The translations under genes were made by a program, and so were the position numbers. A stretch of 55,552 nucleotides of DNA from Streptomyces griseus subsp. griseus (GTDB lineage Bacteria > Actinomycetota > Actinomycetes > Streptomycetales > Streptomycetaceae), in the NCBI RefSeq assembly GCF_000720255.1, contig NZ_JOJE01000049.1:1-55552 (forward strand), in the 5' to 3' direction. The first letter of the stretch is position 1. Each line of letters begins with the position of its first letter. Shown here in pieces: positions 6,005 to 44,731 of the stretch. The notes below the pieces were generated by a model that did not search any database, had not been told where the DNA came from, and saw only the letters and a list, made by a program, of their open reading frames with translations.

Positions 6005-6027
6005 ACATCGTGCCCGGTGAGGCACTG

Positions 6028-6081
6028 GCGGAGGATACGAGATTCGAACTCGTGAGGGGTTGCCCCCAACACGCTTTCCAA
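6028..6081 (-). repeat. left attachment site (tRNA-Ser 3' fragment)
   Basis: 54 bp identical to 53783-53836. On the minus strand it reads from the anticodon loop (TTGG) through the variable arm and T arm (GAGTTCGAATCTC) to the acceptor 3' end. The match stops at 6082, where the sequence changes to element DNA, so there is no 5' half here. This copy is the original chromosomal 3' end of the tRNA gene. Confidence 0.9.
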
Positions 6082-6177
6082 ATGTTCGTCTGGGGGTTCG
6101 GGGATATGCGGGAACGTCCTGACCTGCGGTGGAGCGGTTCGCTGGACGGGCGGCGGACGGCGCTGGACGGGGGTGAA

Positions 6178-6300: not shown

Positions 6301-7341
6301 TCAATGTGCCAGCGGCACGTCACTGAGCACGTCGAAGCGAAGGGCCTCCTGCGGAATCGCTTGGCCGGTGACCAACAGGGCGCGAGCCTGATCGCGGACT
6401 GAGGCTGGGAGCCATGCGACCAGCTCCCGGGCCTTGGCCTCCGATGTGGGACGAGCCGGGCGCGGTGGCCGGAGGACGAGCATGGCCCAGAGGCGTTCGG
6501 CCGGTCCGGCCGGGATACCGGCACGCTCGACCGTGGCGCAGGCCGTGATGGCGATCTGAAGACCGGCGGCATCCAGGTCGCCGAGGTAGTCCAGACGTGT
6601 GACCGGGAAGGGCAACGCCGTTAGAGACTCCAGAGGCGCGGTGTTGCGGCCCTGGACCCAGGCGACGGCGGCCCAGGGTGGGACCGCGCGGGCGCGCAGG
6701 ACGCGGAGGAGCGTGCGGAAGGTGGCGTGGTTCTCGACGCAGACGACGGCGCTGGATTGGCCGATCTCCGAGGTGACCGGCTCCCAGACGAGAGGAGTCG
6801 GCAGCCGCTCGCAGCGCAGCAGCTCGAAAGTCAGCCGGTCGGGCGCCCATAGGGTGCTTCCCCCGCGCGGAGGGTTGGCATCGAACGCCTTCTCGTCGAG
6901 GAGGAGTTCGTATGCCCGTTCAGCGACGGAGACGACCGGGACCTTACCGCCGTCGGTACGCCGCAGCCAGTCGTTGACGGCCAGGAGGAGCTGTCGCTGT
7001 GTCGCGGAGAGACGAAGCGTGGCTGCCCAGCCGGCGAGTTCACTGCGCAGGGGTACGCCGACCGTCAGCAGCTTGTCGGCGGGGCGGGTTGCCCCCGGCA
7101 GGGTTATGGCTTTGGGTAGGACCGTTCGTCCCCGGCGTACGGTCGTGGTCCGGCTCGCTGACCACAGTCCTTCTTGCTCCCCGCGCCTGATCGTGTCGTG
7201 GACGACTTCGGGCAGCGCGGACGCTTCGATCCCGGGGTTCTGCGCTCCAATAGCGGCGGCAAGGTCGTCGGCGTGGCGACGGCCCCCGCGGCCGTCAGGG
7301 TCAAGTGCGACGATCAGATCGGTCAGGTTGACGGAACTCAT
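6301..7341 (-). CDS. jetD: Wadjet nuclease subunit JetD (Toprim fold, DUF3322/DUF2220)
   Basis: 346 aa. The C-terminal half has the Toprim signature: an acidic residue in CVENHATF (E203) and YLGDLDAAG with D255 and D257. This matches the topoisomerase VI/Spo11-like nuclease of Wadjet, which cleaves circular plasmid DNA after extrusion by the JetABC motor. The N-terminal half has the winged-helix character of DUF3322. The ATG overlaps the jetC stop (ATGA), so it is translationally coupled as the last gene of the operon. It ends 104 nt inside the left end motif. The assignment rests on motifs plus the exact JetABCD gene order. Confidence 0.85.
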   Translation of the reverse strand: MSSVNLTDLIVALDPDGRGGRRHADDLAAAIGAQNPGIEASALPEVVHDTIRRGEQEGLWSASRTTTVRRGRTVLPKAITLPGATRPADKLLTVGVPLRSELAGWAATLRLSATQRQLLLAVNDWLRRTDGGKVPVVSVAERAYELLLDEKAFDANPPRGGSTLWAPDRLTFELLRCERLPTPLVWEPVTSEIGQSSAVVCVENHATFRTLLRVLRARAVPPWAAVAWVQGRNTAPLESLTALPFPVTRLDYLGDLDAAGLQIAITACATVERAGIPAGPAERLWAMLVLRPPRPARPTSEAKARELVAWLPASVRDQARALLVTGQAIPQEALRFDVLSDVPLAH

Positions 7342-10300
7342 TCTCCGAGCACCGCCCTGACGTCACGTTGTACGAGGACCAAGTCGGTCAACTCGTGGGA
7401 TCCGTCGTCCACGACCACGACCTTCTCACCCGAAGACGGGCGGGAGCGCCGGCCGAGCATGATGGTGCGGTCGAACATCGACAGTGCCCCTTTGTCCTTG
7501 GGCGCCGCGGTGAACAGCAACTGCAGGCCGAGCTGGTCGGCGGCGCGTCGCATCGTCCGGACGAACTGGTCCGCGGATGCCTGGCCGAACGGGTTGTCCA
7601 GCCACAGCCAGCCGACCGAGGTGGTGTCCGAGAGAGCCCGGACTTTCGTCATCGTCGCGTACAGGAGGACGCCTGCCGTCACTCGCTGCCCACCGGAGAA
7701 GTTCTTCAGCTCGGATACGTCGACGCGGTCGAGGGATAGGTCGATGTGCGGTTTGAGCAGACGCACCCTGAAGGGCGCGTCTACCAGCGCCCGGGCGGCG
7801 GCGAACAGCAGCGACCGTGCGTCCGACCGGCCGGCGCCGGGTGTCAGGAGGGAGTGGACGACGCGAGCGACCCGGTCGATGGCGACGGATTCGTCGGCTG
7901 GAATCTTTTCGTGCTCGATGACGACGAAGCGTCGCTGGGACCACTCGCCCAGTCCGTCCGGGAGCCGTGACTGGTTCTGGTAGGCGCGAAGCCGGTCGAG
8001 CGCCCGCGACGCCTGCACGTGCAGCATGACCGCGCAGGTATGGACGTCGCGGTCATGTCGGTTCAGGTCGTCCCGCAGCGAAACAGCTCGCTGTTCGAGC
8101 TCGCCCGCGATGCGTTCCGACTCCGCGGGAAGCTGCTCGTCGCCGCGCAACCGTGAGATCAGGTCGATGACGCGGGAATCCTCCGCGGCCTCGACCTTGC
8201 GCGCCTGTGAGCTGTTGGCGTGTGCGCGGACTGTGCTGGCCTCCCTCTGCCGGGCCTGCTCGCTGTCCGTCAGGTGCTTCCGTGACTCGCGGACGCGTTC
8301 GGAGACGGCCGAGATCCGGGCGGTGAGGGCGGCGATGTCATCCGCACGGCGACCGGTCAGTGCCGGGTCGGCGAGATAGCGCAGCCCGCTCACGCTTGCC
8401 TCGACCAGCTGGGCTGACTGGCGCGCCGCCGTCACAGCGGTCTCCGCGTTTCGGGCGAGTTGTTCCTCGGAGCGCTGGGTGAGCAGCGACTGGGACGCCA
8501 GTTCGTCGAGCTGGTCGGCGAACCCATCGGCTTCGTCCCCCTCGGCGACCAGATCCGCCGACGGAAACCCCTCGATGTCAGGGGAGGATCGGTCTGCCCG
8601 GTCCTCGGCCTGCCGCTGGAATTCCCGCTTGGCCGTATCAGCGGCCTGCCATGCCTTCGCGTACTCCTCGCGCGCTTCCGCCTCGCGAGCCTCGGCCTGA
8701 CGGGTGGCGGTGCCGAGCGCGACAGGATGCCGCGCGTCATCGGTGCCGGCGAACCGCTCGGCCAGACGCCGCAGGTCGATGTCGGCGTCCAGTTTCGCGT
8801 CCAGGTCCGCGAGGTGTTGCCTGGTGTCAGTGATCAGTTGGCGCAGTTCCGGGTCGACCGCGGCATCTTCCAGGGCCGATGTGACGCTCTTCAGCCGCGC
8901 TCGGATGGTGGGCGCGTCATCGGTGGGGACAGGGCCGTCGATGGTGGCGGACAGCCCTGCGCTGCGTAGTTCGTCGGCCGCGTCGTCCCGGCGGCCTGCG
9001 AGGGTGCGTACAAGGTCGCGTGCCCGGTCGACAGCGACGGCGAGGGCAGGCATCTCCTCGCCGAGCTGGTTGACGCGGCGGCGGTGCTCGGCCTCGGCCG
9101 TGCGTAGCCCCGGCAGCTTCTCACGGGCGCTGGAGAGGGCGTCTGCAGCGCTGATCACAGGGATGAGGAGCCGCCGCATCTCGGTCGCGCGGTCGATGAC
9201 TTCTTGCGCGGCAGCTCGCGCGGCCTCGTGCTCCTGCTTGAGCCGGGCGAGGTCCTGGAGTGCGTCCGCCGCGGCTTGTGCATCGCTGCGGGCTGCTTCC
9301 ACCCGTTCCTGAGCGGACCGGATCTTCTCCTGGACAGCGGTACGCGGATCCCCAGGGAAGTCCTTCCAGAACTGGGTCAGGGCCGCGAGGGCGCCGCGGG
9401 CGTCGGAGGCACGCTGACCAGCTTCCTGGAGGCGAAGAGTCGCTGAGGTCAGCGCGCTCTCGGCGGCGGTGAGCATGTCACTCGCCGCCTCCCGGTCGTA
9501 GGTACCCGGGTGGGGGAGCAGGACTCGGGCGAGTGTTCCGTCGGAGTGGTCGGCCGCACTCGGTGATATGGCGGTCTCTGGGTCAAGGACGGCACCGACC
9601 CAGACCGCCGTGTCGGTGTCGAGATCACCGATGGCGTCGAGGGCACGATGGAAGTGGTTGGGGTGGGAGACCACCACGCCGGACGCGATGTCGGGACGTG
9701 CCGTCGCGAAAGATCGGGCGGCTTGAGAGGTCATCGTGTCTGCCAGCCACCGCCATCCCGGCCAGGCCGGCACATCGGCGTCCTGGCAGCGCCGGACGGC
9801 CTCTTCGACCAGCACGGATGCCGGAAGCAGACCGTCGGCGCCGACCGCGTCGAGGGTACGCCGGGCCTCAGCGGCCACGGTACGTGCCTCGTCGGCGTCC
9901 CCGTCAGCCGTCTCGGCGCGTTGGCTCAGCGCATCCGTGAGTGCTGTGCGGGCGGTCCACAGCTCGATGCCGCTGTCACCGACGGCGTCTCGTATACGTT
10001 CGTCATCCTCCAGCGCGCGGACCCTCTGGTTCACCTGCCGTAGCTGCCGCTCTGCGCTCTCCACGTCGTGCCGGGCGGCGACGATCGCGTTCTGGGCCTT
10101 CGAGACGGCCTTCCGCTGGGCATCAGCCTGTTTGTCGACGGATTTGAGCGCTCCGCCAGCAGCCTCGCGGCCCCTCAGCGCCGAAGCGGCTTTCTCCGCC
10201 CACTCGGCTTCCACTGCTGCCGGATCGGCACCCTCACGGAGCAGGTCGACGGTGACCGCCTCGGAGAGGATCCTTTCGGACTCGGTGATCTGATCACTGA

Positions 10301-11726
10301 CGTGCCGGATCTGCTCGGCGGCGGTCGCGTGTGCCGCCACGGCCTTCTGGCGTTGGTCCTGGGCTGTCGCCAGGGAAGTGAGGGCCTGTTCCCGTCGCTC
10401 CTCGGCGGCACGGAGGTCGGCGGCGGCACGGTCGCGTTGGTCGGTGAGGAGCCGGGCGAGGGCATGCAGGTGCTGCTGTTCCTCCTTACGAAGGTCCGCG
10501 GTCTGCTTCTCGGCAGCCTCAAGGCGGGCCGTGAGCCCGGCCAGCTGAGTCTTGGCCGTGCTGGCGTCGAGTACATCCTGGACGAGTCGCCAGGCGGCCA
10601 GTTCGCGAACTGCCCGGTCGCGGACCGCGCGGCGCTTGTCGGCGAGGGCTGCGGCGGCGTTGGCCCTGAGTTCGGCCCCTCTCAGCCGCATCCGCAACCG
10701 GTGCGCCTGTGCCCTGCGTGCGGTCGCGCCCGCCTCCCGGCGCAGGCGTTCGTGCTCCTCATGTTTCTCGCCGGCACTGGCGTCCTCGGCGGCCAGTTCG
10801 GCGAGCGTCGCCTCGGAGTCGGCCACAACAGTTGCGGCGTTCGCCTCGGCGGTGGCCACCGCCCGTCGGTGAGTAGCGACCTGATCATGGGCGATGGCGA
10901 GGCGGAGCAACGGTTCGGTGAGGCTCTCCCACAGGGCGAGTTCGTCGGACCATCGGGGGCGGGCGGTGGCGTTCGCCCGCAGGACTTCGATGCTCTTGCT
11001 GATCTGCTCGACGGTCGTGGTCGGGGTGGTCGCGCCGATGAGCCAACGTACGCAGGCGTCGGAATCAGGAAACCGCATCACATGGTCGACGCCGCCTTCG
11101 GAGGCGTTCATCTCGGACTGGAACCGCAACTGCTCCACATCGACTCCAGCGGCGGCCAGCCAGTCACCCCAGGCCCGTTGGTGGTCCGAGGGACGATGCG
11201 GCGGTAGCGCGCCGCCGTTGGGCAGCATCCCGCGCACCGCCTCCACGAACTGCGCATGGGTCGCGCGTCGGCCGACGCTGGTACGGAACGGCAGGTCTTC
11301 GATGGTCGGCCCCGAGCCGTAGGTCACCCATCCGTAGAAGTCGCGCTGCAGTTTGCGTGGGTTGTCGAGGTCCTGAGTGCCGCCGTCTGCCCAGTCGGCG
11401 ACCATGCCCATGACGATGCGCTGGAGTTCGCCGTCCACGACTCGGGTGGCCTGCTCGACCACGTGACAGACATCGCCCGAGCGCACCAGCTTCGCCAGGG
11501 ACCGGTCGGATTCACCCCGGATGAAGTCCCGCGTGTGCGGCAGGTACAGCCCGAAACGCAGAGCTGTGATCGTCGTCTTTCCCGTGCCGTTGTCGGCCCA
11601 CAGCGCGGCGTGTCCGGTGGGCTCAAAGGGATCGGACCAGTTGATGCTGAGCCCCTCCAGCCGTGACTCGGGGAAGCCTGCGCCTACCAGATAGGTGCGC
11701 TCGAGGCGCCAGCCCGTCTGCATCAC
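7338..11726 (-). CDS. jetC: Wadjet SMC-like ATPase JetC (MukB/MksF-type)
   Basis: 1462 aa. An N-terminal Walker A (ADNGTGKTT, K50) and a C-terminal ABC signature (FSGGQR, from residue 1343) are separated by long Ala/Arg/Glu-rich coiled coils, the SMC/Rad50 layout. A hinge-like non-coiled region with Trp and Pro occurs around residues 600-720. Walker B reads WLWLDNPFG at about 1373-1381: the usual catalytic Glu after Asp1377 is Asn. JetC dimers would use ATP to extrude DNA loops and detect small circles. Start is GTG 11726, overlapping the jetB stop; an ATG follows directly. The gene is intact, with no frameshift seen. Confidence 0.88.
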   Translation of the reverse strand: MMQTGWRLERTYLVGAGFPESRLEGLSINWSDPFEPTGHAALWADNGTGKTTITALRFGLYLPHTRDFIRGESDRSLAKLVRSGDVCHVVEQATRVVDGELQRIVMGMVADWADGGTQDLDNPRKLQRDFYGWVTYGSGPTIEDLPFRTSVGRRATHAQFVEAVRGMLPNGGALPPHRPSDHQRAWGDWLAAAGVDVEQLRFQSEMNASEGGVDHVMRFPDSDACVRWLIGATTPTTTVEQISKSIEVLRANATARPRWSDELALWESLTEPLLRLAIAHDQVATHRRAVATAEANAATVVADSEATLAELAAEDASAGEKHEEHERLRREAGATARRAQAHRLRMRLRGAELRANAAAALADKRRAVRDRAVRELAAWRLVQDVLDASTAKTQLAGLTARLEAAEKQTADLRKEEQQHLHALARLLTDQRDRAAADLRAAEERREQALTSLATAQDQRQKAVAAHATAAEQIRHVSDQITESERILSEAVTVDLLREGADPAAVEAEWAEKAASALRGREAAGGALKSVDKQADAQRKAVSKAQNAIVAARHDVESAERQLRQVNQRVRALEDDERIRDAVGDSGIELWTARTALTDALSQRAETADGDADEARTVAAEARRTLDAVGADGLLPASVLVEEAVRRCQDADVPAWPGWRWLADTMTSQAARSFATARPDIASGVVVSHPNHFHRALDAIGDLDTDTAVWVGAVLDPETAISPSAADHSDGTLARVLLPHPGTYDREAASDMLTAAESALTSATLRLQEAGQRASDARGALAALTQFWKDFPGDPRTAVQEKIRSAQERVEAARSDAQAAADALQDLARLKQEHEAARAAAQEVIDRATEMRRLLIPVISAADALSSAREKLPGLRTAEAEHRRRVNQLGEEMPALAVAVDRARDLVRTLAGRRDDAADELRSAGLSATIDGPVPTDDAPTIRARLKSVTSALEDAAVDPELRQLITDTRQHLADLDAKLDADIDLRRLAERFAGTDDARHPVALGTATRQAEAREAEAREEYAKAWQAADTAKREFQRQAEDRADRSSPDIEGFPSADLVAEGDEADGFADQLDELASQSLLTQRSEEQLARNAETAVTAARQSAQLVEASVSGLRYLADPALTGRRADDIAALTARISAVSERVRESRKHLTDSEQARQREASTVRAHANSSQARKVEAAEDSRVIDLISRLRGDEQLPAESERIAGELEQRAVSLRDDLNRHDRDVHTCAVMLHVQASRALDRLRAYQNQSRLPDGLGEWSQRRFVVIEHEKIPADESVAIDRVARVVHSLLTPGAGRSDARSLLFAAARALVDAPFRVRLLKPHIDLSLDRVDVSELKNFSGGQRVTAGVLLYATMTKVRALSDTTSVGWLWLDNPFGQASADQFVRTMRRAADQLGLQLLFTAAPKDKGALSMFDRTIMLGRRSRPSSGEKVVVVDDGSHELTDLVLVQRDVRAVLGE

Positions 11727-12514
11727 TGCCCCCTCTCGCCGAAGGGTTCGACGTAGCCGGTGTGGGCGGACTTACCCTGGCTGTCCTGTCGGTGCCCTTC
11801 CGGCACCTGCGAACCGATGATTGTCTGCCACACGAGAGGGCCGCCGGCGGTCGCGACATGAGCGCGGAAGCGGTCGGTGGACCGCCACACCTTCAGCTCA
11901 GCTCGGGGTGGCGCAACTGTCGTGTCGACCACGACCAGTCCGAAGGACGCCAGCATCACCAGCACGTCCTCGCACATCCGCACCGTGCAGTCGCGCTTCA
12001 AGCGGCCACTCGATGTCAGAGCGACCTGTTTACGGTTGGTGGCGTACTCGCGCCACGCCTCGCCGAGCCCGCCGTCGAGCGTGATTTCCTCCGCCTCGAT
12101 GGCCGTCGCGTGTTCCCGTACGAGACGATCGACATCCAGGGCCGTGACGCGCCGCGTACCCGGCTCACGCACCGCACGAGCGGTCGGATAGCACCAGGCC
12201 GTCGCTCCGCCGAGGGCCAGCCCGTACACCAGGCGATCAGCCGTTCCCCGGATACGAAGCCAGGTGCTGACGTCCGTGACTGCCAGCGGCGAGGTGGGTT
12301 CGGCGATCAGCACGAGCCCTGCTGAGCGATCAGCGGTCAGTACCCGCAGGCCGAGGCCGTCGGCTGTTTCGTCGAAGGCGGTGCGCAGGTCAGGGTCGGT
12401 GTGGAAGCGGTCCAGCAGTCGGCTGTAGCCGTCATGGCGGGCTGGGGACACGGTGGGGTCGAGGCCGTACCTCAGGAGGAGGCCGACATCCCGCGCGTCG
12501 TCACGTGCCGTCAT
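11723..12514 (-). CDS. jetB: Wadjet kite subunit JetB (MukE/DUF4194-like)
   Basis: 263 aa, sitting between the kleisin and the SMC gene as in every Wadjet operon, with overlaps at both ends (14 nt with jetA, 4 nt with jetC). Composition and predicted helices and strands fit a tandem winged-helix protein, e.g. the segment LRIRGTADRLVYGLALGG followed by a basic helix. The family role is to bind the kleisin and stabilise the motor. Start ATG 12514 has GGAAAGGGG upstream inside jetA. Sequence similarity alone is weak by eye; the assignment depends mainly on context and size. The last 40 residues are polar and probably disordered. Confidence 0.75.
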   Translation of the reverse strand: MTARDDARDVGLLLRYGLDPTVSPARHDGYSRLLDRFHTDPDLRTAFDETADGLGLRVLTADRSAGLVLIAEPTSPLAVTDVSTWLRIRGTADRLVYGLALGGATAWCYPTARAVREPGTRRVTALDVDRLVREHATAIEAEEITLDGGLGEAWREYATNRKQVALTSSGRLKRDCTVRMCEDVLVMLASFGLVVVDTTVAPPRAELKVWRSTDRFRAHVATAGGPLVWQTIIGSQVPEGHRQDSQGKSAHTGYVEPFGERGQ

Positions 12515-14015
12515 CTTCGTCCCCTTTCCGGCAGACGAGCAGATCGGGAACGTCCAGATCGGAGAGCACTCCCCGTATCCCGTCGTCCAGCGCCCACCAC
12601 TCGTCCGAAGCATCGGGTCGGCCGTCGGGCCGCCAGAGCATCATCGCGTCGAGCGCGAGCAGCAGCCGCAATCTGCGACGGGCGGTCTCACGTGAACCTC
12701 CGACGACGGCGACCAACCCGTCGAGGACGGCGGACGGCTCGTCGGCGGCGAACAGCCTGTCAGCGTCGGCCAGCAAGTCGGTCAGCCGCGCCTTGGCTCC
12801 CGGCATGACCCTGTGGGCACGCAGCACGTGGGCCACATCGTGGAACTGCTCCGGGAACTGCTCGTACACTCCGTCAGCGTCTTCGAGCGGCTCCTCCGCA
12901 ATGGGCGCAGCTTCCGGGGTCGGCACTTGCTGCGGCGGCACGGCAAGTCGGTTCGCGAGCGTCGCGACATCCAACAGCACCCGTGGAGCCGGCGGAGACA
13001 GCTCAGCGCCGCGGGGCAACGGCAGGCCGCCCAGAAGCGCCGTGAGCACGTCTGCGGTCGGGTCGATCTCGCTCACCGGCACAGCACTGAACGCCTGCGC
13101 GGCCTGGGCCTCACGCCAGCGCGGAGCGGCCCCGATCACATCGGTCTGCAGCGCGGCCAGGGTCTCCACCGCGTCACCGAGCCGCGACGCGGCCACGGAC
13201 AACTGCCGGACCGCCACTGGGTCTTGTTCTTCGGAGGCGTCCGCCCGCAAGTTCTCCAGGTGCCGCAACAACGTCCCGTCGACGTTGATGCGCCGCTCCA
13301 GATGCGCAGCCGCGGCTATGAGCTCAGGCCGCAGGACCCGCAGGTAGTCGACACGGGTCACATCACGTTCGGCCTCGGCGATCATGCGCCGGACGTTCGC
13401 CGCGTAGGTTCGCGACAGCGTCAGGGCGTCCTCCGCCGAGTCGATCGCCGCGTCCAGACGCCCGCTCTCGGCCTGTGCCCGCATGACTGCGATCACTGCC
13501 TCGTGCTCGTCCTCCAACGACCGGTTGGTCGCGATGAGCAGCAAGGTCACGGCGGTGTTGTCAGCGTTGACGTGCAGGGTGCGCCCGTCGGCGGCCAACG
13601 TCTCGTACAGCACACGTACCTGAAGGGGAACCGGCTGCCAGCTGGAGTCGGGATCCGCGTACTCGACAGTGAAGTACGGGGTCGGCTCGTCGTGGCGCAG
13701 GAGGTGGTCGAGGAGGTGCCGGGCGACGTGTTCGTGTTCCTCAGCAGGGCGGCGCGGGGCCATGCTGCCGGCCACCCGGGCCATGTCAGCGAGCACCTCG
13801 TCACGGGGGGCGCCGAGAGTGCCCTCCAGCCCGGAGGACAGCGCGATCGTGTCCACGCACGACTGGATCAAGGCGACGAAATCGTACGCCTGCCACTGCA
13901 CACTCGATGGGTTCCTCGCCCGGTTCAGGTGCACCTCGAAAATCGGCGAGAGATGCGCAAGTGTTCGACGGCGGCGCGCGGCAGTGCTTGTCAGCGGAGA
14001 ACCGGTGCTCTTCAC
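12501..14015 (-). CDS. jetA: Wadjet kleisin subunit JetA (MukF-like)
   Basis: 504 aa from GTG 14015, chosen because AGGAGG lies 5 nt upstream; longer starts would run into the divergent neighbour. The N-terminus (FEVHLNRARNPSSVQWQAYDF) begins a helical domain. The middle is helical with an SRTYAANVRRMIAEAERDV segment resembling the kleisin neck-binding helices. The C-terminal 110 residues form a winged-helix-like domain ending DLPDLLV-like and are acidic at the very end. It is the first gene of the four-gene operon and would bridge JetC heads and recruit JetB. The 210-nt divergent gap to 14226 must hold the operon promoter. The Wadjet subtype cannot be fixed from the sequence by eye. Confidence 0.78.
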   Translation of the reverse strand: MKSTGSPLTSTAARRRRTLAHLSPIFEVHLNRARNPSSVQWQAYDFVALIQSCVDTIALSSGLEGTLGAPRDEVLADMARVAGSMAPRRPAEEHEHVARHLLDHLLRHDEPTPYFTVEYADPDSSWQPVPLQVRVLYETLAADGRTLHVNADNTAVTLLLIATNRSLEDEHEAVIAVMRAQAESGRLDAAIDSAEDALTLSRTYAANVRRMIAEAERDVTRVDYLRVLRPELIAAAAHLERRINVDGTLLRHLENLRADASEEQDPVAVRQLSVAASRLGDAVETLAALQTDVIGAAPRWREAQAAQAFSAVPVSEIDPTADVLTALLGGLPLPRGAELSPPAPRVLLDVATLANRLAVPPQQVPTPEAAPIAEEPLEDADGVYEQFPEQFHDVAHVLRAHRVMPGAKARLTDLLADADRLFAADEPSAVLDGLVAVVGGSRETARRRLRLLLALDAMMLWRPDGRPDASDEWWALDDGIRGVLSDLDVPDLLVCRKGDEDDGT

Positions 14016-14225
14016 GCGCACCTCCTCAGCCGGTCGGGCTACGCCGTCGACTCCCTGATGCCAATGAGTATGTCCAGCAACCGAGGCCACGACCCCTCCA
14101 TCGTTCGGGCCTCTGAGCCTGGCAGGTGCAGAGCAAACGAGAAGACCTTTTCCGACTATATGCGGCAGCGTGCGTCTTGCCGCCAAAGACTGGCTTTGCT
14201 CAGTTTCCCGGCGAAAGGAAGCATC

Positions 14226-15185
14226 ATGGAAGCCAATTCGGATCGCACGGTCACGAACAGCGCCCGAGTCTGCAAGGAACAGTCCGGTACCGGTGCGCTG
14301 CAGGCGTCGACCTCGGCGCCAGAGCGGGCCGCGTCCATGCTGCGGGCGCATGACGCATGGGCTCTGTCGGTCGAGGTCCTGGGAGACGCGCTGGGCGCGA
14401 CGTTCTTCGAGAAGGAGCTGGGCGACGACCACCAAGCGTGGCTCATCGCCCTACGCGGCCGGATCGTGGTCGCCACGGTCCCCGGACTGTCTGAGGGAGC
14501 GAAGAAGCACCACATCCGGCGGCTCTTCTCCGAGTACATCAGTCATGGCTGGGCCGCCATCACGGTGGATGCCGAGGAAGAGGTGACCTTCGCCGAGACT
14601 TTCCTGGAGGAGGTCGACCCGGCCGAGACCTTCTTGGGCGAGGTCGGCCCGGAGCGCGGTCCTGCAGACGATCCGCCCGACGTGGGCGTGAAGCAGAGCA
14701 TGGACGTGCGCGACCTCTACGAAGGATCCGCCTACGCGCCACTGCACGGCTGGCGCAGTGACGAGGAGGTGATCACGGCACTGCGCACGCTGATCACTGG
14801 TGCACTTGCCGGCACGGCCGAGGACATGCCGGAGGAGGTCTACCCGCTTCCCGAGGGCGTCGGAGCCATGGTCGCGATCGGCTACGACGAGCAGGGAGCG
14901 CTGCATCCTCTGGTCTGGGTCCGCACTGACATCCCCAGCGGGTTGCGAGCGGACCTGTGGGGGTACTGCGCCGCGCTGTCCGCCAGCCTCGACCGCGTGG
15001 ATGTTGAGCCCGACGAGAACGGGATCTTCTATGTGGGAATGGAAGGCTCGCCGGTGACCGGCCCGGGCGTAGCGCTGCTCGCGGCGGCCATGGTGCAGCG
15101 GATGGGCCGGCGCCCTGAGGACTGCGCCTTCCCTCTCCTCGCGCCTCCCTCCCAGGCAGAGGAGACACCGCCTCTGGCTGCGTGA
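14226..15185 (+). CDS. hypothetical protein divergent from the Wadjet operon
   Basis: 319 aa. The start at ATG 14226 is supported by GAAAGGA 5 nt upstream. I do not recognise the family. Two alpha/beta segments are separated by an acidic linker: residues about 35-120 (AWALSVEVLGDALGATFF, ending AAITVDAEEE) and about 160-300 (DVRDLYEGSAYAPL to RMGRRPEDCAFPLL). The linker has an internal near-repeat, FAETFLEEVDP / PAETFLGEVGP. There is no signal peptide or membrane segment. It is divergent from jetA and may share regulation with it; whether it belongs to the defence system is unknown. Confidence 0.75.
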   Translation: MEANSDRTVTNSARVCKEQSGTGALQASTSAPERAASMLRAHDAWALSVEVLGDALGATFFEKELGDDHQAWLIALRGRIVVATVPGLSEGAKKHHIRRLFSEYISHGWAAITVDAEEEVTFAETFLEEVDPAETFLGEVGPERGPADDPPDVGVKQSMDVRDLYEGSAYAPLHGWRSDEEVITALRTLITGALAGTAEDMPEEVYPLPEGVGAMVAIGYDEQGALHPLVWVRTDIPSGLRADLWGYCAALSASLDRVDVEPDENGIFYVGMEGSPVTGPGVALLAAAMVQRMGRRPEDCAFPLLAPPSQAEETPPLAA

Positions 15186-15443: not shown

Positions 15444-16352
15444 TCAGGAGTGCCCGTCGTGCTTGATGCGGGCTGCGAGTGCGGCGGCCTGCTGCACGCA
15501 TTCTTTGGCGTCTCTGGTGACCTCGGATCCGCTGAAACGGACGATGCGCCAGCCGTCGAGTTCGAGTTCGCGCTGTCTGGCCCTGTCGCGGGTGAAAGCT
15601 TCCGGACTGGAGTGCCAGGAGTAGCCGTCGAGTTCGATGCCGATCTTCTGGTCGGGCAGGGCGAAGTCGATCCTGTACCGGCCGCCGAAGACGGGATGCT
15701 GCGACTTCAGGCCGCTCAACTCTGGGGGAGTCGTGTGCAGGTAGGCGCGCCAGAACGCTTCCTCGATGGGTGATTCGAGGCTGGGAAAGAGGTCCACGAC
15801 CTGCTTGAGGGCGGCATCGGGTGTCGCGGCAGTGATCGTGACGGTGGCGCAGGAGAACGCGAACCAGAGATCGTTGGTGGGACCGTCAGGGATACCCAAG
15901 CCGTGACCGGACAGGTCTTCGTAGGTGTGCGGCAGTTCGGGGGCCGCGACAACGACGGGCTTGCCGCGGCCTTTGGCGTAACCGATCTCGACGAGCGTGC
16001 CGTAGGCGGTGGGGTCGTCGAGCCAGGCAAAGACGATGTCGGCGACGTCGATGGCCGCGAGGCAGAGTTCCCGGATCTTGGGTCGCTGCGGAAGGTTGCC
16101 GTAGGTGTAGCAAGCCAAGCAGCCGTCCATGCCGCAACCGTGCGTGCTGGGACCATGGCCGCACCTGTGGTCGTCGCCGATGAAGTAGGGGCCGACGTAG
16201 TCGAAGGTGTCGAGGACACCTCGCTTCATAACGGGCCACGGCTCGGATGGGTTGTCGTCCGTGACTTCCCAGGCGTAGCGGAGTTCCCAGCCGAGCAGTT
16301 CATGGCGCCAGTCATAGGGTCCGATCTTTCCTGCGAGGTAAATGGACGGCAC
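15444..16352 (-). CDS. nucleoside 2-deoxyribosyltransferase-like domain fused to a DUF559/Vsr-like endonuclease
   Basis: 302 aa from GTG 16352 with GGGAGG 4 nt upstream. Residues 1 to about 165 match a nucleoside 2-deoxyribosyltransferase/TIR-like Rossmann fold: YLAGKIGPYDWR at the start, AIDVADIVFAWLDD, then GTLVEIGYAKGRGKPV carrying the likely catalytic Glu. Within it is a Cys/His-rich insert (HRCGHG...CGMDGCLAC), possibly zinc-binding. Residues about 195-300 form a PD-(D/E)xK-like DUF559/Vsr domain: EEAFW, RYRIDFALPDQKIGIELDG, and a basic helix before GWRIVRF. The fusion of a nucleotide-processing or sensing domain to a nuclease, next to Wadjet and a type III R-M system, suggests defence. 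Function untested. Confidence 0.8.
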   Translation of the reverse strand: MPSIYLAGKIGPYDWRHELLGWELRYAWEVTDDNPSEPWPVMKRGVLDTFDYVGPYFIGDDHRCGHGPSTHGCGMDGCLACYTYGNLPQRPKIRELCLAAIDVADIVFAWLDDPTAYGTLVEIGYAKGRGKPVVVAAPELPHTYEDLSGHGLGIPDGPTNDLWFAFSCATVTITAATPDAALKQVVDLFPSLESPIEEAFWRAYLHTTPPELSGLKSQHPVFGGRYRIDFALPDQKIGIELDGYSWHSSPEAFTRDRARQRELELDGWRIVRFSGSEVTRDAKECVQQAAALAARIKHDGHS

Positions 16353-16715: not shown

Positions 16716-18821
16716 ATGACCTCGAACTCGACGCCCCGACACCAGGGGCGCCTCGAACTCACCTGGACCGACAAAGACAAGACGCTGCTGTCGACCGGAG
16801 ACGGTAGGTACGACTACACGTTCGTCGAACCGTCGGACTACAGGGTCTCCGAGGTCCGGCTCCTCCACGAGGTTGATCGAGTCGAGGCACCGACACCCGA
16901 AGGTCGTCCGGCAGACCTGCCGGCGCCGACCCACGACAACCTCCTCATCACCGGCGATGCGATGCACGTACTGGACGCGCTCGCCAAGATTCCGGCCTAT
17001 GCCGAGAAGTACCTGGGTCGGGTGAAATTGGTCTATATCGACCCGCCCTTCAATACAGGTCAGGCATTCACCAACTACGAAGACAACATCGCGCACTCGA
17101 TCTGGCTCACCCTCCTGCGGGACCGGATCCGCCAGATCAGGCCGCTGCTCGCGGACGACGGAACCGTGTGGGTGCACCTCGATCACATGGAGTCGCATAG
17201 GTGCCGTGTTGTCCTCGACGAGGAGCTGGGGGAGAGTAACTTCGTTGCAGAGGTCGCCTGGCAAAAGGCGGACTCGCCCCGAAACGACACCAGGCTGCTT
17301 TCGACGTCTCAGGACACGATCCTGGTCTACCGGAAGTCCGAGTCCTGGTCCCCGAACAGAATGCCCAGGCTCGCCTCCTCGAACACGAGCCGCTACCAGT
17401 CACGTGACGGGGACCCCGTGCCCTGGCGTGACGGAGATGCGACCGCGGGCAAGGCGGCAACGAACCATCCGATGGTCTACGCGATCCAGCACCCTGTCAC
17501 CGGGGGCCTGATGTATCCGACTGCTGGCCGCTGCTGGGGGAAGGCGCAGTCGTGGATGCTGAAGCAGATGTCGGAGTATGCGCCGTACGAGTTGCGTGAC
17601 ATCGGCGACGAAGAGGAGCGCGCACGCATCTGCGGGACAACAGCGGACAAGGTCAAGGCCGGCGTTCCAGCGATCATGCTGTCGGTGCCCGTCGAAGAGG
17701 CCGCCAAAATCGCCCGCGCCCGCTATGACGCGGGGCACTGGCCCGACATCGTGATGCTCGGCCTCCGGGAGCGCATCCAGCGCAAGAAGCATCTGGAGGA
17801 CAACGGTCGCGTTCCCGAGACGCTCTGGCTGGGAAGCGAAGTCGGAGGAAACCTTCGAGGCAAGATCGAAATCAAGAATCTGTTCCCTGACGAGCATCCG
17901 TTCGCGACGCCGAAACCGGAGGCTCTGATGGCCCGCATCATCCACATCGCCTCCAATCCCGGCGACATCGTCCTGGACTGTTTCGCCGGGTCAGGCACTA
18001 CCGCGGCCGTCGCCCACAAGATGGGCCGGCGATGGGTGACCAGCGAACTGTTGCCCGAGACCGTGGCCCGATACACGCTGCCCCGGCTCGCCAAGGTCGT
18101 CAACGGCCAGGATCCTGGGGGCATCACCACCGTTACCGAGCGAGTCTCGGCGGTTGACGATGACGAAGACCGCGAGGGCGGCCTTCCTGATGGAATGACG
18201 CCGGACGAGGCGCACGAGTTCAACCGGCTGCTCACCAAGGTCACCAAGGCTGTCGGGTCCGAACTCGATGCCAGCACCGTCAAGGCACTCAAGGCGGCCA
18301 CCAAGACCAAGAACGTCAAGAACGTCAACTGGCACGGTGGGGGGAGCTTCACTCATCTCCAGGTCGGCGAGTCCATGTTCGTCGAGATGAGTGGCATGGT
18401 CCTGCTGGCCGACTGGGCCGTCCAAGGCGCACTGGCCGAGGCGATGTGCGCCCAGCTGTCCGTCCCTTACAAGCCCGACGGCATCTTCGCAGCCAAGCAG
18501 GGCCGTTCCCGTTACGTCGTCATCGACGGCATGGTCGGTACGGGCACCGTCGCGTCCATCGTCGACAGGCTCGCAGAGGACGAGGTCGTGGAAGTGTGGG
18601 CCACCCAAATCCAGGACGGTGCCGCCGAGGCACTGAAGCAGGCCCGCCGCGGATCCCGGCTCGAACTCATTCCTGACAAGGTTCTCGACAACTACCGGCG
18701 CAAGTCAGCCCGCAAGTCTCCGTTCGGCGCAGGTCGTTCCGCGGTCCCATCACCTCGGGCCACCGAGGAACCGGCTGAGACCACCACCGTTGCCGCCGTT
18801 ACCGAAGGGGAGACCGCCTGA
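16716..18821 (+). CDS. mod: type III restriction-modification system DNA methyltransferase (Mod)
   Basis: 701 aa. The amino-group methyltransferase motifs are in the beta-class order: catalytic DPPF (residues 109-112, in [11 protein letters not shown]) first and the AdoMet motif DCFAGSGTT (about 421-429) near the C-terminal side of the domain. The region between holds the target recognition domain. Residues about 480-701 form an extra C-terminal part found in Mod proteins of this type. It would methylate adenine in an asymmetric site and pair with Res for cleavage. AAGGGAA lies before the ATG. The stop overlaps the res start (TGATG). GC content is lower than in neighbouring genes, consistent with transfer. 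Confidence 0.88.
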
Positions 18822-21391
18822 TGGGCGAGTTGCAGTTCCAGCCCGACCTCCTGGCCGAGGTCGCCCACCGCCTCGACCTGCGTGAGCCGAACCGCAAAGC
18901 CATCGAGTCGGTGATTCTCCGCACGTCCGACCACTACGACGTGCAGGAGGAGACTGAGCCGTACGAGTGCATCGTGGACTCGGCCACCGGCGTGGGAAAG
19001 ACCTACGTCATGGCCGGACTGATGGAGTACCTGGCCGGAGCTGCGACCCCGGTCCGCAACTTCCTGCTGTTGGCGCCCGGACGGACAATCCGGGACAAGT
19101 CGATCCTCAACTTCACCGCTGGCAACCCGAAGTCGCTGCGGCACATGCTGCGATCCGCCCCGTACGTCATCACGGCCGACAACTTCAACGCGCAGTCCAC
19201 CCGAGTCGCGATCGATGATCCGACGGTCACGAAGCTGTACGTTTTTACGGTTCAGGCCCTGACGTCAGCTACAGGCGAGGGGCGTGCAACACACGTGCCC
19301 CTGGAAAACTTGGGCATGTCCTTCTTCGACCACCTCGCGCGGCTCGATGACCTCGTCATTCTGGCGGACGAGCACCACTGCTACCGAGGACCGGCGTTCT
19401 CTCGAACCATCCGGGACTTGAAGCCCGAGCTCGTAGTCGGTATGACTGCCACGCCCGTTAGAGCGGACGAGTCCCTCGTTGCATTCCGTTACCCGCTGGC
19501 CGCCGCTATCGCGGACAAGCTCGTGAAGACCCCCGTGATGGTGGCTCGCCGTGACGACCGCTCTGACGTCGAGACGAAGCTGCTCGACGGCGTCAATCTG
19601 CTGCGTTACAAGGGCCAAGCCGTCGACGCCTATTGTGACGAGAATGGTCTGCCCCGGGTGAACCCAGTAATGCTGGTCATCGCCCGGAACATTGAGGAGG
19701 CCGAAGAATTCCAGGCCGTCCTCGACTCGGGCAGCTTCGACGGTGGTGCGTGGGTTGGAAAGACGCTCCTGATTCATTCGAAGTTGACCGGCGATGCAAA
19801 AGAGAAGGCTCTGGCCGATCTCCAAGCCGTCGAGAACCCTGACTCGCCGGTCCGCATCATCATCAGCGTCGGAATGCTGAAGGAAGGCTGGGACGTCAAG
19901 AGCGTCTACGTGATCGCCTCCATGCGGGCATCGGTCTCGGAAGTCATGACCGAACAGACCCTCGGCCGCGGTATGCGGCTTCCGTTCAGCAAGTACACGG
20001 ATGTCGAGATCCTCGACACGCTCGAAATCCTGGCCCACGAGAAGTACAGCGAGCTACTGGAGAAGCGGAAGGTCCTCAACGAGGCTTTCATCGACTACGC
20101 CACATACGCAGAAGTACGGCGACTGGCCGATGGCAGCTCCGTGGTCCGCCAGAAGACGGTCGAGAGTGACGGGGAGGTCATCGGCCTTCCCGGAGGTGGT
20201 CTCTCTCAGGCCGGCGATACCAGCCGGCCTGAGGGAGACAACGTCAGCCAGAGCGGTGCGTCGGCTACTGGGCGGGGATTGACCTCGGGAGTCACTCCAG
20301 CAGTCCCCGCGCCGGCTGCCCCCGATGGGCGCGGGGTTGTGGATGTGGAAACCCGTACGCGCGAGGCAGCGGAGGCCGCCAAGAAGACCTCCACGGTGGT
20401 CCACTACGATCCGCTGCCTGATCGAGAACCTATCCTGATCCCTAAGCTGATCTCGGTGCCGCAGTTCGCCCAGGTCAGCCTTAACGAAATCGTCGACTAC
20501 GGCCCGTTTGAGCGGCTCGGCCGCACCCTCACCGCCGACTATTCCGATGAGTTGAAGCGGACGAAGATCGTCGCCAGTCACGACGGCCGCAAGGTCACGA
20601 CGGCGACCGAGACAGCCAACGACAAAATAGTCTCCGCGTTGCCGCTCGACATCCCTCTCTCGGTTACGCGGGAAGCGCTCGTCCGCCGAGTCATGTCCGT
20701 CAAGGGCGTGCCGAATCGCGCATTGGAGCTTGGAGCTGCCCAACGCATCGTCGACCGCCTCATTGAAGCGATGGGGGAGAAGGCAGCCGACCATCTCTCT
20801 GCCTTCGTCGACCGGTGTGGCCAGCGTCTCGCCACCGAGGTGGCCAAAACCCTCCGAGACGTAACCCAGGCCCAGGTCACCTATGACGACGACGTACAGC
20901 TCGTCGCACTCACCAAGACTCGCGAGACGCGCAAGCGCCAGGTGGCCGGCCATGCCGATGGTTCATTCGACAAGGCGATCGCCTTCAACGGCTGGAGCAA
21001 GAACCTCTACAGCCATGCCTGGTTTGACACCTCGCCGGAGTTCAAGGCAGCCAACGCTATCGACAGCGGCAAGAACGTGGTCGTGTGGGCCCGTCTGCAC
21101 ATCAACGATGTGCCCATCAAATGGACCTCGGAGGGGCGAGAGTACAACCCTGACTTCGTCGTCATCGAAAAGGTGGACGGGCAGCGCATCGGCTGGCTGG
21201 TTGAGACGAAGGCAGACAAGGACATGACCTCTGCCGAGGTGGTTGCCAAGCGCAAGGCAGCCCGGAGGTGGGCCAACACCGCGAACTCCTCACCAGACGT
21301 CGACATCACCTGGAAGTACCTCCTTGTGGGCGAGCAGGACGTCGAGGACGCTCAAGGGTCCTGGGAGTTCCTGAAGGGCTTCGGCCAGTAG
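18821..21391 (+). CDS. res: type III restriction enzyme Res subunit (helicase-nuclease)
   Basis: 856 aa. SF2 helicase motifs are visible: Walker A DSATGVGKT (residues 53-61), LADEHH (about 181-186, in place of DEAH), MTATPVRAD, and motif VI-like EQTLGRGMRLP. The C-terminal nuclease carries a PD...ExK motif: P777-D778 and E795-T-K797. A Pro/Ser-rich linker around residues 460-510 contains a long DNA inverted repeat. With Mod it would translocate and cut unmethylated DNA between head-to-head sites. It is translationally coupled to mod and followed by a strong hairpin. Confidence 0.88.
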   Translation: MGELQFQPDLLAEVAHRLDLREPNRKAIESVILRTSDHYDVQEETEPYECIVDSATGVGKTYVMAGLMEYLAGAATPVRNFLLLAPGRTIRDKSILNFTAGNPKSLRHMLRSAPYVITADNFNAQSTRVAIDDPTVTKLYVFTVQALTSATGEGRATHVPLENLGMSFFDHLARLDDLVILADEHHCYRGPAFSRTIRDLKPELVVGMTATPVRADESLVAFRYPLAAAIADKLVKTPVMVARRDDRSDVETKLLDGVNLLRYKGQAVDAYCDENGLPRVNPVMLVIARNIEEAEEFQAVLDSGSFDGGAWVGKTLLIHSKLTGDAKEKALADLQAVENPDSPVRIIISVGMLKEGWDVKSVYVIASMRASVSEVMTEQTLGRGMRLPFSKYTDVEILDTLEILAHEKYSELLEKRKVLNEAFIDYATYAEVRRLADGSSVVRQKTVESDGEVIGLPGGGLSQAGDTSRPEGDNVSQSGASATGRGLTSGVTPAVPAPAAPDGRGVVDVETRTREAAEAAKKTSTVVHYDPLPDREPILIPKLISVPQFAQVSLNEIVDYGPFERLGRTLTADYSDELKRTKIVASHDGRKVTTATETANDKIVSALPLDIPLSVTREALVRRVMSVKGVPNRALELGAAQRIVDRLIEAMGEKAADHLSAFVDRCGQRLATEVAKTLRDVTQAQVTYDDDVQLVALTKTRETRKRQVAGHADGSFDKAIAFNGWSKNLYSHAWFDTSPEFKAANAIDSGKNVVVWARLHINDVPIKWTSEGREYNPDFVVIEKVDGQRIGWLVETKADKDMTSAEVVAKRKAARRWANTANSSPDVDITWKYLLVGEQDVEDAQGSWEFLKGFGQ
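20196..20242. repeat. 20-bp inverted repeat inside the res linker
   Basis: The arms at 20196-20215 and 20223-20242 pair over 20 bp with two mismatches around a 7-nt loop. It is in frame and encodes a Gly/Ser/Asp-rich linker between the helicase and nuclease parts of Res. It looks like a small palindromic insertion tolerated in a linker. Confidence 0.7.
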
Positions 21392-21456: not shown

Positions 21457-23232
21457 CTACGCGTAGCCGTCCCCGTACTTTCCGGGATTCCTGGCCCTAT
21501 CCACAGCCTGTGCACGAGCATCGGCGAACGCCGTGGTCACAGCCTCGCGGTCCGTGCCGCGGACCTGAGCCTCGACCTCCTGGCCAGATCGGCGGGTGGT
21601 GTGCCAGCGCACCGGTAGATCCGTGTAGAGATCGGTTTCGAACTCCCAGGCTGGCGTGGACCATTGCTCGTCGCGGCCGATGTTGAGCCGTTCGCCGCCG
21701 GGCAGGAACATGGCGTGGGCATGGTGGACAACCCGGCGGTCCGGCATGCGGTCGCGGATAGCTTGCACGCCGCCAGGGCCTTCGCGCTCCCACTGCGGCC
21801 GGTCCCACTTCTCCACATGCGCAGGCTTGCCAGGGTGATCGGCGCGCCACTGGGAGACCACGGCCTGGGCATGCTCGTTGTGCAGGAACGGAACATACCG
21901 CTCGCCGAGACAGGCCACGTACACATCCGACCCTGCTTGTACGGGGCCCTGACTCAAACCCGACACGGGACCTCCAGGTGTCGCCGGGAACTGGTGCGGT
22001 GTTGAGCCCCAGATCAGGGCGCCGACCTTCGCTGCCGTCTGCTGGAGCACTTGGCCGGTGAGGTGCTGGTAGCGGCGACGCATCCGGGCGGACTTGCCGG
22101 GCTCCCAGCCCATGATCCTGTCGACGACCGCTTCGGGGACGCCGAGGATGAGCAGCACCGTGGCGGCGGTGTGCCGGGCGTCGTGGAGGCGTCCGTCGCG
22201 GACGTTCGCCGCCTTCAGCAGGTCCTTCCACCGGTGGAAGTCGGTGTTGGGGTTGAGCGGCTCGCCGATCGGCGAGGTGAACACGTACCCCTTCTCCACC
22301 CACAGGTCCCGGGCGAGAGTGCGCTCGCGGTCCTGTTTCTCCTTGTGCTGCCGCAGCAGCTTGAGCAACTCTTCGGGCATGCCGATCGGGCGCTTGCCGG
22401 CGCGGGTCTTGGTGTCCTTCGTCTCGCGACGGATGCTGATCTTCTGCGGACAATAGCCGGGCTTGCGCCCGCACTTGTCGCCGCAGCCGTGCTTGTAGCG
22501 GGGCCGCAGGCGCCCTCGGCGTACGAGGATCACGCCGTTCTCGAAGTCGACGTCCCCCCACTGCAACCCGAGGGCCTCGCCCTGGCGCAGGCCGAGGGCG
22601 AGGGCGATGACCCAGCGGGCGGTGTTGCGGTGCTTGCCCGCTTCGAGGAGGAGGCGCTGGACCTCCTCGATCGTGTACGGCTCGACCTCCTCCTCTTCGA
22701 GCTTGGGGGCCTTGGCGATGGAGGCCGGGTTGATGGCGAGATGGCGGCGGCGTACGGCCTCGTTGAGTGCCGTGCGGACCGTGCGGTGCGCCTGGTGGGC
22801 GGTGCCGGCGGAGCTGCCGTTCGCCTGCATCTTCCGGTAGAAGCGCTCCAGGTGTTCCGGCTCCAGCTTCTCCAGGCGGTGGGCGCCCAGGCCGGGGATG
22901 AGGTGGTGGTAGACCGCCACGCGGTAGCCGTCGATGGTGTTCTCGCCGACGCTGGGCGCGGCGATGTTCTCCACCCAGTGGGTCAGCCACGTCGCGACGG
23001 TCCAGGTCTGGCCCGCCTTGGCGACACCGGTGGAGTCGCGCTGCTTCTCCAGTTCGCGCACGAGTTTGGTGACCTCGGGGCGCGTCTTGCGGCTGACGTG
23101 GCGCCGGTCCGGGGTGCCGTCGTCCTTGACGCCGACGGTGACATAGCCGTGCCAGCGACCGTCCTTCCCGAGGAAGATCGAGGAGGCGCCGTTGGGCTGG
23201 CGGGACGTGCTGGGCTTCTTGGCCTTTGCCAT
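21457..23232 (-). CDS. int: tyrosine integrase with C-terminal extension
   Basis: 591 aa. N-terminal arm-binding domain (GASSIFLGKDGRWHGYV), SAM-like core-binding domain, then the catalytic domain with R216 (GLRQGEALGL), H350-x-x-R353-H354, W376 and Tyr388 (RRRYQHLT). A Cys-rich insert (C250, C254, C261) is typical of pSAM2-like Streptomyces integrases. Such enzymes usually end 20-30 residues after the Tyr; this one continues for about 190 more (from about 401), including DVYVACLGERYVPFLHNEH. The extension is unrecognised. It would integrate and excise the element at tRNA-Ser. It lies 15 kb from the nearer attachment site, which is unusual. It is 11 nt downstream of xis. Confidence 0.88.
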   Translation of the reverse strand: MAKAKKPSTSRQPNGASSIFLGKDGRWHGYVTVGVKDDGTPDRRHVSRKTRPEVTKLVRELEKQRDSTGVAKAGQTWTVATWLTHWVENIAAPSVGENTIDGYRVAVYHHLIPGLGAHRLEKLEPEHLERFYRKMQANGSSAGTAHQAHRTVRTALNEAVRRRHLAINPASIAKAPKLEEEEVEPYTIEEVQRLLLEAGKHRNTARWVIALALGLRQGEALGLQWGDVDFENGVILVRRGRLRPRYKHGCGDKCGRKPGYCPQKISIRRETKDTKTRAGKRPIGMPEELLKLLRQHKEKQDRERTLARDLWVEKGYVFTSPIGEPLNPNTDFHRWKDLLKAANVRDGRLHDARHTAATVLLILGVPEAVVDRIMGWEPGKSARMRRRYQHLTGQVLQQTAAKVGALIWGSTPHQFPATPGGPVSGLSQGPVQAGSDVYVACLGERYVPFLHNEHAQAVVSQWRADHPGKPAHVEKWDRPQWEREGPGGVQAIRDRMPDRRVVHHAHAMFLPGGERLNIGRDEQWSTPAWEFETDLYTDLPVRWHTTRRSGQEVEAQVRGTDREAVTTAFADARAQAVDRARNPGKYGDGYA

Positions 23233-23243: not shown

Positions 23244-23540
23244 TCAGGCCGCAGCGTCGAAGTCCGAGGCCCGAAAGCGTCGGGCTAGGAACTCACCGAC
23301 CGCCTCAGCGGGTATGCGGCGCAGGCTGCCGATCTTGACGGAGGCGATCTCGCCGGAGGAGACGTACTCGTACAGCTTGGTGCGGCCGATGCCGATCCGG
23401 CGGGCGGCCTCGGTGACGGTGAGGGCGACCAGGGTTGTGTCGCTGGCGGTTCGCCGCTCGGCCATCAGGGTGCGCAGGGCGTCTTCGGGGACGTCCAGGA
23501 GCTGGGCTATCTGGGATATGGGCAGGGCGGGCTGCGACAA
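23244..23540 (-). CDS. xis: excisionase-type HTH protein (Xis)
   Basis: 98 aa. Residues about 40-90 read LTVTEAARRIGIGRTKLYEY, then ASVKIGSLRRIPAEAV, a MerR-like helix-wing fold of the excisionase/HTH_17 family. These small proteins bend attachment-site DNA and direct integrase to excision. It sits 11 nt before int in the same direction, so co-transcription is expected. The N-terminal 35 residues are helical and less conserved. Confidence 0.85.
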   Translation of the reverse strand: MSQPALPISQIAQLLDVPEDALRTLMAERRTASDTTLVALTVTEAARRIGIGRTKLYEYVSSGEIASVKIGSLRRIPAEAVGEFLARRFRASDFDAAA

Positions 23541-24240: not shown

Positions 24241-24392
24241 TCGCACCTCCCTTCACACGACAACGGGCCCACTGGGGCGAGCGTCCACAACTAAACATCA
24301 TTGCGGAGTGAAATGCAAGGCGTTGCGCTTCCGAAAATTTCAGCTATGGTCGTAGTCCGCCGTACAGCGGTGGACGCATCCGCACACGCAAG

Positions 24393-24421
24393 CGGCCCCG
24401 GTGCTACGAACACCGGGGCCG
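24393..24421 (+). promoter_or_regulatory. leader hairpin before the replication gene
   Basis: CGGCCCCGGTG / CACCGGGGCCG forms an 11-bp stem with a 7-nt loop, 98 nt before the rep start and inside the 280-nt divergent gap with the XRE gene. It could attenuate rep expression or be a binding site. The rest of the gap must hold both promoters. Confidence 0.45.
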
Positions 24422-24519
24422 AGGTAGAGGCTCCACCGCACAACCATCCATCCCTGAACGATCGAAACCGGCACCGCCGGGGTTGCCGCCCCATAGTGGC
24501 CTGCCGGGTGAGGAGCTCT

Positions 24520-27439: not shown

Positions 27440-27470
27440 CGTGCCCCGTGCGGACAAGCGCGGGGGCACG
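27440..27470. other. inverted repeat before mobC (candidate oriT)
   Basis: CGTGCCCC (27440-27447) and GGGGCACG (27463-27470) form an 8-bp inverted repeat around a 15-nt spacer containing GCGGACAAGCGCG. It lies 52 nt before mobC in the only gap of the mobilization operon, the common place for a nic region. Nothing proves nicking. Confidence 0.35.
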
Positions 27471-27522
27471 AGGCCGCGCAAAGCGAAGCACCGGACACCA
27501 GCACCCCACGGAGAACAGTTCG

Positions 27523-36568: not shown

Positions 36569-36696
36569 CGCCGACCATGTGGCCGAATTTCCTGTGCCAG
36601 GTGGGTGGTTGAGGATGCTAAGTTTCCGGCTGATCTGGTCGCTTCAGCCCCATCGCACCGTGCCACCTCCGGCACGTACCTCACGAGGAGCGTTGA

Positions 36697-36900
36697 ATGC
36701 CGTCACCCGCGTCCGTCACCGAGCCACGCATCATCACGCCCGTCGGCCCGGCGTCCGCGGAGCCGACGGCGGCCGGCACCGCCGTCCTGGACCGCGTGGC
36801 CGCCCGTGTCCGGAAGCGGCTGGAGGCCGAGGAGGGCGCGACGAGCCGGGTCGGCGACGGCGCCCACGCGGCCTCGCTCATCTGGCCCTGGCCGCTGTGA
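36697..36900 (+). CDS. haaA: RiPP precursor peptide ending HAASLIWPWPL
   Basis: 67 aa with a strong GAGGAGC 5 nt before the ATG. The leader is Pro/Ala/Thr-rich followed by a helix (AVLDRVAARVRKRLEAEEG), and the C-terminal core is HAAS-LIWPWPL. The two Trp residues near the free C-terminus are the likely sites for cyclophane (aryl-to-side-chain carbon) crosslinks by the downstream radical SAM enzyme, 13 nt away. The HAA tripeptide and neighbour set fit the HaaA family of cyclophane-containing RiPPs as I recall it. The better-known FxSxx C-terminus is absent. Confidence 0.75.
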   Translation: MPSPASVTEPRIITPVGPASAEPTAAGTAVLDRVAARVRKRLEAEEGATSRVGDGAHAASLIWPWPL

Positions 36901-36913
36901 GCACGTCCGCTCG

Positions 36914-38074: not shown

Positions 38075-38166
38075 ACGCGTGTGCCGTACCGCCAGGAGGG
38101 GATCACGCGTTGGAACGAACGAGTGCAGCAGCGACCGAAGCAATCGAGGAAGGACAGGAGGCGCCG

Positions 38167-38646: not shown

Positions 38647-38662
38647 GGGTGGTACGAGGCCA

Positions 38663-44652: not shown

Positions 44653-44685
44653 CCCCATGCCTCCGCCATCAGTGCTGTGAACGAG

Positions 44686-44717: not shown

Positions 44718-44731
44718 AGCACGAGCCGCCG

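Follow-up and report, generated by a model that had tools for sequence, protein, structure and literature searches.

A complete type III Wadjet operon near one end of a predicted integrative mobilizable element in Streptomyces griseus

How can a mobile element that would pass through a circular form carry an operon of a family known to cut small circular DNA? This question is raised by a 55,552-nucleotide stretch of the Streptomyces griseus subsp. griseus genome (hereafter the window), in which the initial annotation had recognised a complete JetABCD-type Wadjet operon on a plasmid-like mobilizable element. Four intact ORFs fill positions 6301–14015 of the minus strand in the order JetA, JetB, JetC and JetD, with no internal stops; neighbouring ORFs overlap by 4 to 14 bp and thus form a contiguous operon, jetA-B-C-D. 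A profile search against JetA–D models, the check proposed with the annotation, matched three of the four proteins. Specifically, the PADLOC hmmscan assigned JetA to JetA3 (1.8e-46), JetC to JetC3 (1.4e-131) and JetD to JetD3 (1.2e-51), which are type III profiles (PDLC00567, PDLC00579 and PDLC00594), and found no match for JetB. The ORF layout and these type III matches for JetA, JetC and JetD bear out a complete operon in the annotated order and confirm it as a complete Wadjet operon of type III. In NCBIfam, none of the four Jet proteins has a match, and the Pfam matches of JetD fall below the curated cut-off; these two results together argue that the window operon belongs to a divergent clade. 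Phage records searched with JetA gave no match. In gene order, in its JetA3, JetC3 and JetD3 matches, in the Toprim JetD and in a kite-like JetB, the operon resembles known Wadjet type III with its DUF3584-type JetC. It differs as a divergent actinobacterial clade whose JetB lies beyond existing profiles, and window JetC shares only 23–25% identity with its type III counterparts on three Streptomyces plasmids, on one Rhodococcus plasmid and on contig C3 of the same genome.

The two non-catalytic subunits were assigned with unequal ease. JetA (12501–14015, minus strand, 504 aa, GTG start) is a kleisin by its PADLOC JetA3 profile. In the fold search for JetA, unrelated helical bundles (CorA) score above the MukF rows, whose rmsd is 7.1–7.6; the MukF rows cover 217–245 residues, as against about 110–155 for the bundles, and because of this longer span we prefer them, as a judgement call. 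JetB (11723–12514, minus strand, 263 aa) has no match in any of three profile libraries, PADLOC, Pfam and NCBIfam, and its predicted fold leans towards the JetB/MukE kite proteins with matches of middling strength. JetB is therefore likely a kite protein; the kite feature claimed for it at first has some backing in the predicted fold and none in the profiles. The start of jetB was placed at ATG 12514, correcting the earlier ATG 12613, because of a purine-rich leader, the overlap of this ATG with the jetA end and the same start in four relatives.

JetC (7338–11726, minus strand, 1462 aa, PADLOC JetC3) is an SMC-type ATPase that contains a Walker A motif, an SGGQ signature and a Walker B Asp followed by Asn. 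In an alignment of window JetC with 11 others, Walker A, the signature and the Walker B Asp are present throughout, and the next residue is Asn in 12 of 12. The same Asn is found in 99 of 100 database relatives of JetC, with a gap in one (alignment, P0226–P0325); among these relatives the signature Ser is invariant (100/100), and its first Gly position holds Gly in 68 and Cys in 25. In other SMC ATPases, the catalytic glutamate stands at the position after the Walker B Asp where type III JetC has Asn. The type I side of this comparison comes from publication: Corynebacterium MksB needs its Walker B glutamate, the mutant E1042Q being inactive according to the accessible part of the report (PMC10123090). 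Because Asn follows the Walker B Asp, the motor chemistry of type III may differ from that of type I. JetD (6301–7341, minus strand, 346 aa, PADLOC JetD3) is a Toprim nuclease, and the Toprim Glu and Asp-x-Asp are retained in all 11 aligned JetD sequences. A sequence search of solved structures with JetC and JetD matched no Wadjet chain. The operon shares its four-part architecture with type I Wadjet and MksBEFG (E. coli GF4-3, Pseudomonas, Corynebacterium), and by analogy the loop-extrusion-and-cut scheme of these systems is probably common to type III.

The DNA around the operon has the predicted make-up of an integrative mobilizable element, bounded by a direct repeat pair at 6011–6088 and 53766–53843 with a spacing of 47,755 bp. 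The distal att core (6028–6081, plus strand) is a 54-nt exact copy of the 3' half of tRNA-Ser, and the second core copy (53783–53836) lies at the tRNA-side end of the element, which is formed by an intact tRNA-Ser(GGA) gene (53783–53868, minus strand). Pfam matches define a tyrosine integrase of 591 aa (21457–23232, minus strand; PF00589, 1.2e-18, and PF14659), a helix-turn-helix protein (23244–23540, minus strand; PF12728, 8.4e-14) that is Xis-like in a role suggested by its position, a DnaB-like replication protein (24301–26040, plus strand; PF00772, 2.2e-26, and PF13481), a NikA/MobC relaxosome protein (27448–28167, plus strand; PF21983 and PF05713) and a relaxase (28164–29885, plus strand; PF03432, 5.3e-7) with matches in 418 plasmid records. 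A DUF2637 protein is also encoded. Taken together, the tRNA-gene repeats, the integrase and the relaxase identify, at the level of sequence, an integrative mobilizable element with a predicted excision circle of 47.8 kb, and with Rep and MobC they uphold the annotated carriage of the operon on a mobilizable element of about this size. No FtsK/TraB or type IV secretion system Pfam domain occurs in 34 scanned ORFs (31 within the element and 3 at its edge or outside), which are part of the element's ORFs and not every one; on this ground the element appears to be mobilizable rather than self-conjugating. With actinomycete integrative and conjugative elements (AICE) it shares a tyrosine integrase, an Xis-like protein, a tRNA site and its own replication protein, and it departs from them in having NikA/MobC and a relaxase and, among the 34 ORFs scanned, no FtsK/TraB-type translocase. 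Other cargo comprises a type III restriction-modification pair (Mod and Res, 16716–21391, plus strand; PF01555, PF04851 and PF19778), which is defence cargo adjoining the operon, as well as an Mrr-type nuclease, an NB-ARC/TPR protein and a lanthipeptide gene set.

The operon belongs to this element. It sits about 220 bp inside one element end, and it adjoins the same att arm in three genomes, those of the window, S. blattellae and a further Streptomyces (G228). Just beyond jetD, the window and S. blattellae (L001/L054) both have the att core and the same inner arm; in G228, only a remnant of the att core and arm remains, about 1.5 kb beyond jetD, and no tRNA-Ser lies within the 100 kb read. 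Integrase matches at E up to 1e-50 occur in 162 of 392 genomes, and the stretches inspected around the five best other matches (G352, G220, G275, G325 and G110; 82–94% identical) hold no intact operon, the G220 stretch being a 47-kb contig that may be cut. Of these five, G110 keeps a 640-bp piece of jetB that covers only residues 35–228, and in G352 a type III JetD is encoded on a separate contig, off the related element. Since five integrase relatives are without an intact operon, Wadjet appears to be accessory cargo subject to gain and loss.

Next to the operon lies a divergently oriented gene with no Pfam match (14217–15185, plus strand), for which Pfam thus assigns no function. It is found in 14 of the 392 genus genomes; it adjoins the operon in S. 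blattellae and G228 as well, and in G352 it is present on the related element that has no operon. A role of this gene as a Wadjet-specific immunity or regulator gene is unsupported, as five loci (L002–L006) carry jet genes without it. Among its best five matches (G352, G228, G022, G128 and G357), moreover, JetD is unmatched in G128 and G357, and the JetD of G352 is only on a separate contig.

Relatives of the operon show how its genes have been maintained. The scan of species genomes recovered six operon loci (L001–L006). All four jet genes are matched in L002, L003, L005 and L006, as they are in L001 (S. blattellae), where JetD is 89% identical; in L004, jetA is unmatched and jetB partial. 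Window JetD finds matches at E up to 1e-10 in 28 of 392 genus genomes, the window's own included, and JetD is at least 89% identical in three genomes, again counting the window's; the JetD3 profile matches in 38 of 392 at E up to 1e-5. In G228, a single-contig genome, all four jet genes are intact as in the window. The dN/dS values against G228 are 0.106 for jetA, 0.143 for jetB, 0.199 for jetC and 0.252 for jetD, and those against L001, with its jetB left out, are 0.115 for jetA, 0.175 for jetC and 0.212 for jetD. The jet genes are thus kept by purifying selection (dN/dS 0.11–0.25), and this range together with homologous operons in other actinobacteria excludes a chance origin. As a separate observation, the jetB of S. 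blattellae (L001:4728–5616) is split over two reading frames in a draft assembly.

The self-attack problem that the initial annotation had posed can now be narrowed. According to the accessible text of PMC10586767, linear DNA escapes type I Wadjet, as do circles larger than about 100 kb, and circular plasmids of variable size are among the carriers of Wadjet operons. A plasmid collection was searched with window JetC, JetA and JetD and with two other type III JetC proteins. Nine distinct plasmid records match type III JetC, of which five are linear (Streptomyces, 367, 417 and 429 kb; Rhodococcus, 77 kb; Embleya, 5.7 Mb) and four circular (Salmonella, 133 kb; Polaromonas, 172 kb; Microvirga, 1.39 Mb; E. 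coli, 4.9 Mb); no circle under 100 kb is among the nine. For the four circular records the type III assignment is weaker because only 7–16% of the JetC query is covered, and in the Salmonella record JetC is annotated as two pieces. These sizes and shapes agree with self-avoidance by shape or size and, as nine records with no matched control, prove nothing. Because the element is integrated and a circle is needed only during transfer, self-attack would be confined to the excised-circle phase. The problem as first posed would thus apply to the excised circle and would for the most part not arise as long as the element is integrated.

Building on the observed gene content, motif integrity, selection, att-end linkage and mobility genes, we consider it likely, by analogy with type I, that the window holds an intact type III Wadjet that forms part of the cargo of a 47.8-kb integrative mobilizable element, close to one of its ends, and removes incoming small circles. 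Circle cleavage, its target range and its timing, which we infer for this operon, would proceed as follows. JetC dimers, together with the kite JetB and the kleisin JetA, would reel in DNA as in type I, and JetD would cut the molecule once it is found to be a small closed circle, which would clear the cell of circular plasmids that enter it and of competing circular elements. The element itself would escape because its normal location is within a chromosome megabases in size. Exposure would be limited to the brief excised circle, a risk that may be accepted or may be lowered by low copy number, by short duration or, after transfer, by integration before the complex is made.

A 2018 study by Doron and colleagues reportedly included an assay of a type III operon in Bacillus. 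Wadjet research is mostly on type I, and types II and III may recognise other substrates, according to the accessible part of PMC10586767; the window operon is of type III, intact and under selection, in a genus with well-developed genetics. Since the operon is intact and selected and 47.8 kb is near the type I cut-off, the survival of a Wadjet-bearing element's own circle is directly testable here. In published surveys, as far as their accessible text goes, Wadjet is present in 42% of Actinobacteria as against 7% of other bacteria and, on Streptomyces chromosomes, is enriched towards the termini (PMC10482375), and Wadjet-carrying mobile elements are known from E. coli (PMC10121019). Like the hotspot 37 islands of E. 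coli (PMC10121019) and plasmid-borne Wadjet (PMC10586767), as these are described there in part, the window presents Wadjet as mobile cargo; it differs from both in its phylum and in its Rep- and relaxase-bearing mobilizable element at tRNA-Ser. Among the papers listed in literature searches, titles and abstract openings contain no description of Wadjet on this kind of element, which does not prove that there is none.

Small-circle cutting, which the annotation had carried over to this operon as a known property of Wadjet, holds for type I. The operon is of type III, and the literature examined, in its accessible parts, demonstrates no plasmid cleavage by type III. Deletion of a type III Wadjet in Cupriavidus necator left electroporation efficiency and the stability of the tested plasmid unchanged, according to the accessible part of PMC12645576. 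It is accordingly conceivable, though on balance unlikely, that the type III complex serves against phage or in DNA maintenance in the manner of MksBEF, with JetD acting on another structure. Along with the unaffected plasmids in Cupriavidus, the Asn that follows the Walker B Asp throughout speaks for such a role, as does a second, chromosomal type III set in the same genome (L015:3917–11401, on contig C3 of G000). This set consists of JetA3, a gene in the jetB position with no profile match, and JetC3 (PADLOC, 1423.6 bits; 25% identical to window JetC). No JetD lies within the 17 kb read on contig C3, and genome-wide the only match to the JetD3 profile is the JetD of the window. The lack of JetD suggests a role apart from cutting, and the C3 set is possibly an SMC complex without a nuclease. 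For the same reason, we dropped the notion of a second functional host Wadjet that the element would have to contend with. On the other side, the operon of the element keeps a JetD with an intact Toprim site under purifying selection, and the Cupriavidus test, as reported in the accessible text, comprises two read-outs and few plasmids.

That the operon is a decaying passenger with no present function on the element is very unlikely. The jetB scrap in G110, the two-frame jetB in the S. blattellae draft assembly and the missing jetA match in L004 would fit such decay, but all four genes are intact in both the window and G228 and show dN/dS of 0.11–0.25. We regard it as highly improbable that Wadjet instead destroys excised or replicating copies of the element itself and thereby locks it in the integrated state, against over-replication and loss. 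The element does have its own Rep, a 47.8-kb circle is within or near the type I cutting range given in the accessible part of PMC10586767, and the operon is at the att end in three genomes; however, five related elements lack the operon, and the att-adjacent position may be mere cargo insertion. Least probable of all is that type III forms a distinct SMC-nuclease branch without the Walker B Glu, one that spares or serves replicating elements of about 50 kb and here combines self-policing with exclusion of rivals, one operon then providing both defence and control of the element's own copy number and integration.

Further observations concern the element and its relatives. Many relatives of the 591-aa integrase align only over residues about 8–411, which suggests that some 170 aa at the C terminus are an extension characteristic of a subgroup. 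An internal block of ~28 kb, reaching from the integrase to XRE/Mrr (about 21470–49900, perhaps to 50750), has one orientation in the window and G352 and the opposite one in G220, G275, G325 and G110, with the att ends collinear; a backward orientation of the whole element relative to these relatives was rejected, as both ends are collinear and only the internal block is inverted. In G352 (L075–L077), three att cores in a row at the same tRNA-Ser accompany three integrase relatives, an apparent array of tandem elements. The lanthipeptide cargo set (36605–44814) encodes a radical SAM protein, a PCMT-like methyltransferase, LanC and LanB; its counterparts on the related elements in G275 and G110 are 83–95% identical, and those of the NB-ARC/TPR protein (33803–36568, 921 aa) in the same two are 92–94% identical. 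Beside the type III restriction-modification genes, positions 15444–16352 encode an apparent fusion of nucleoside deoxyribosyltransferase-like and MTES_1575-type nuclease parts.
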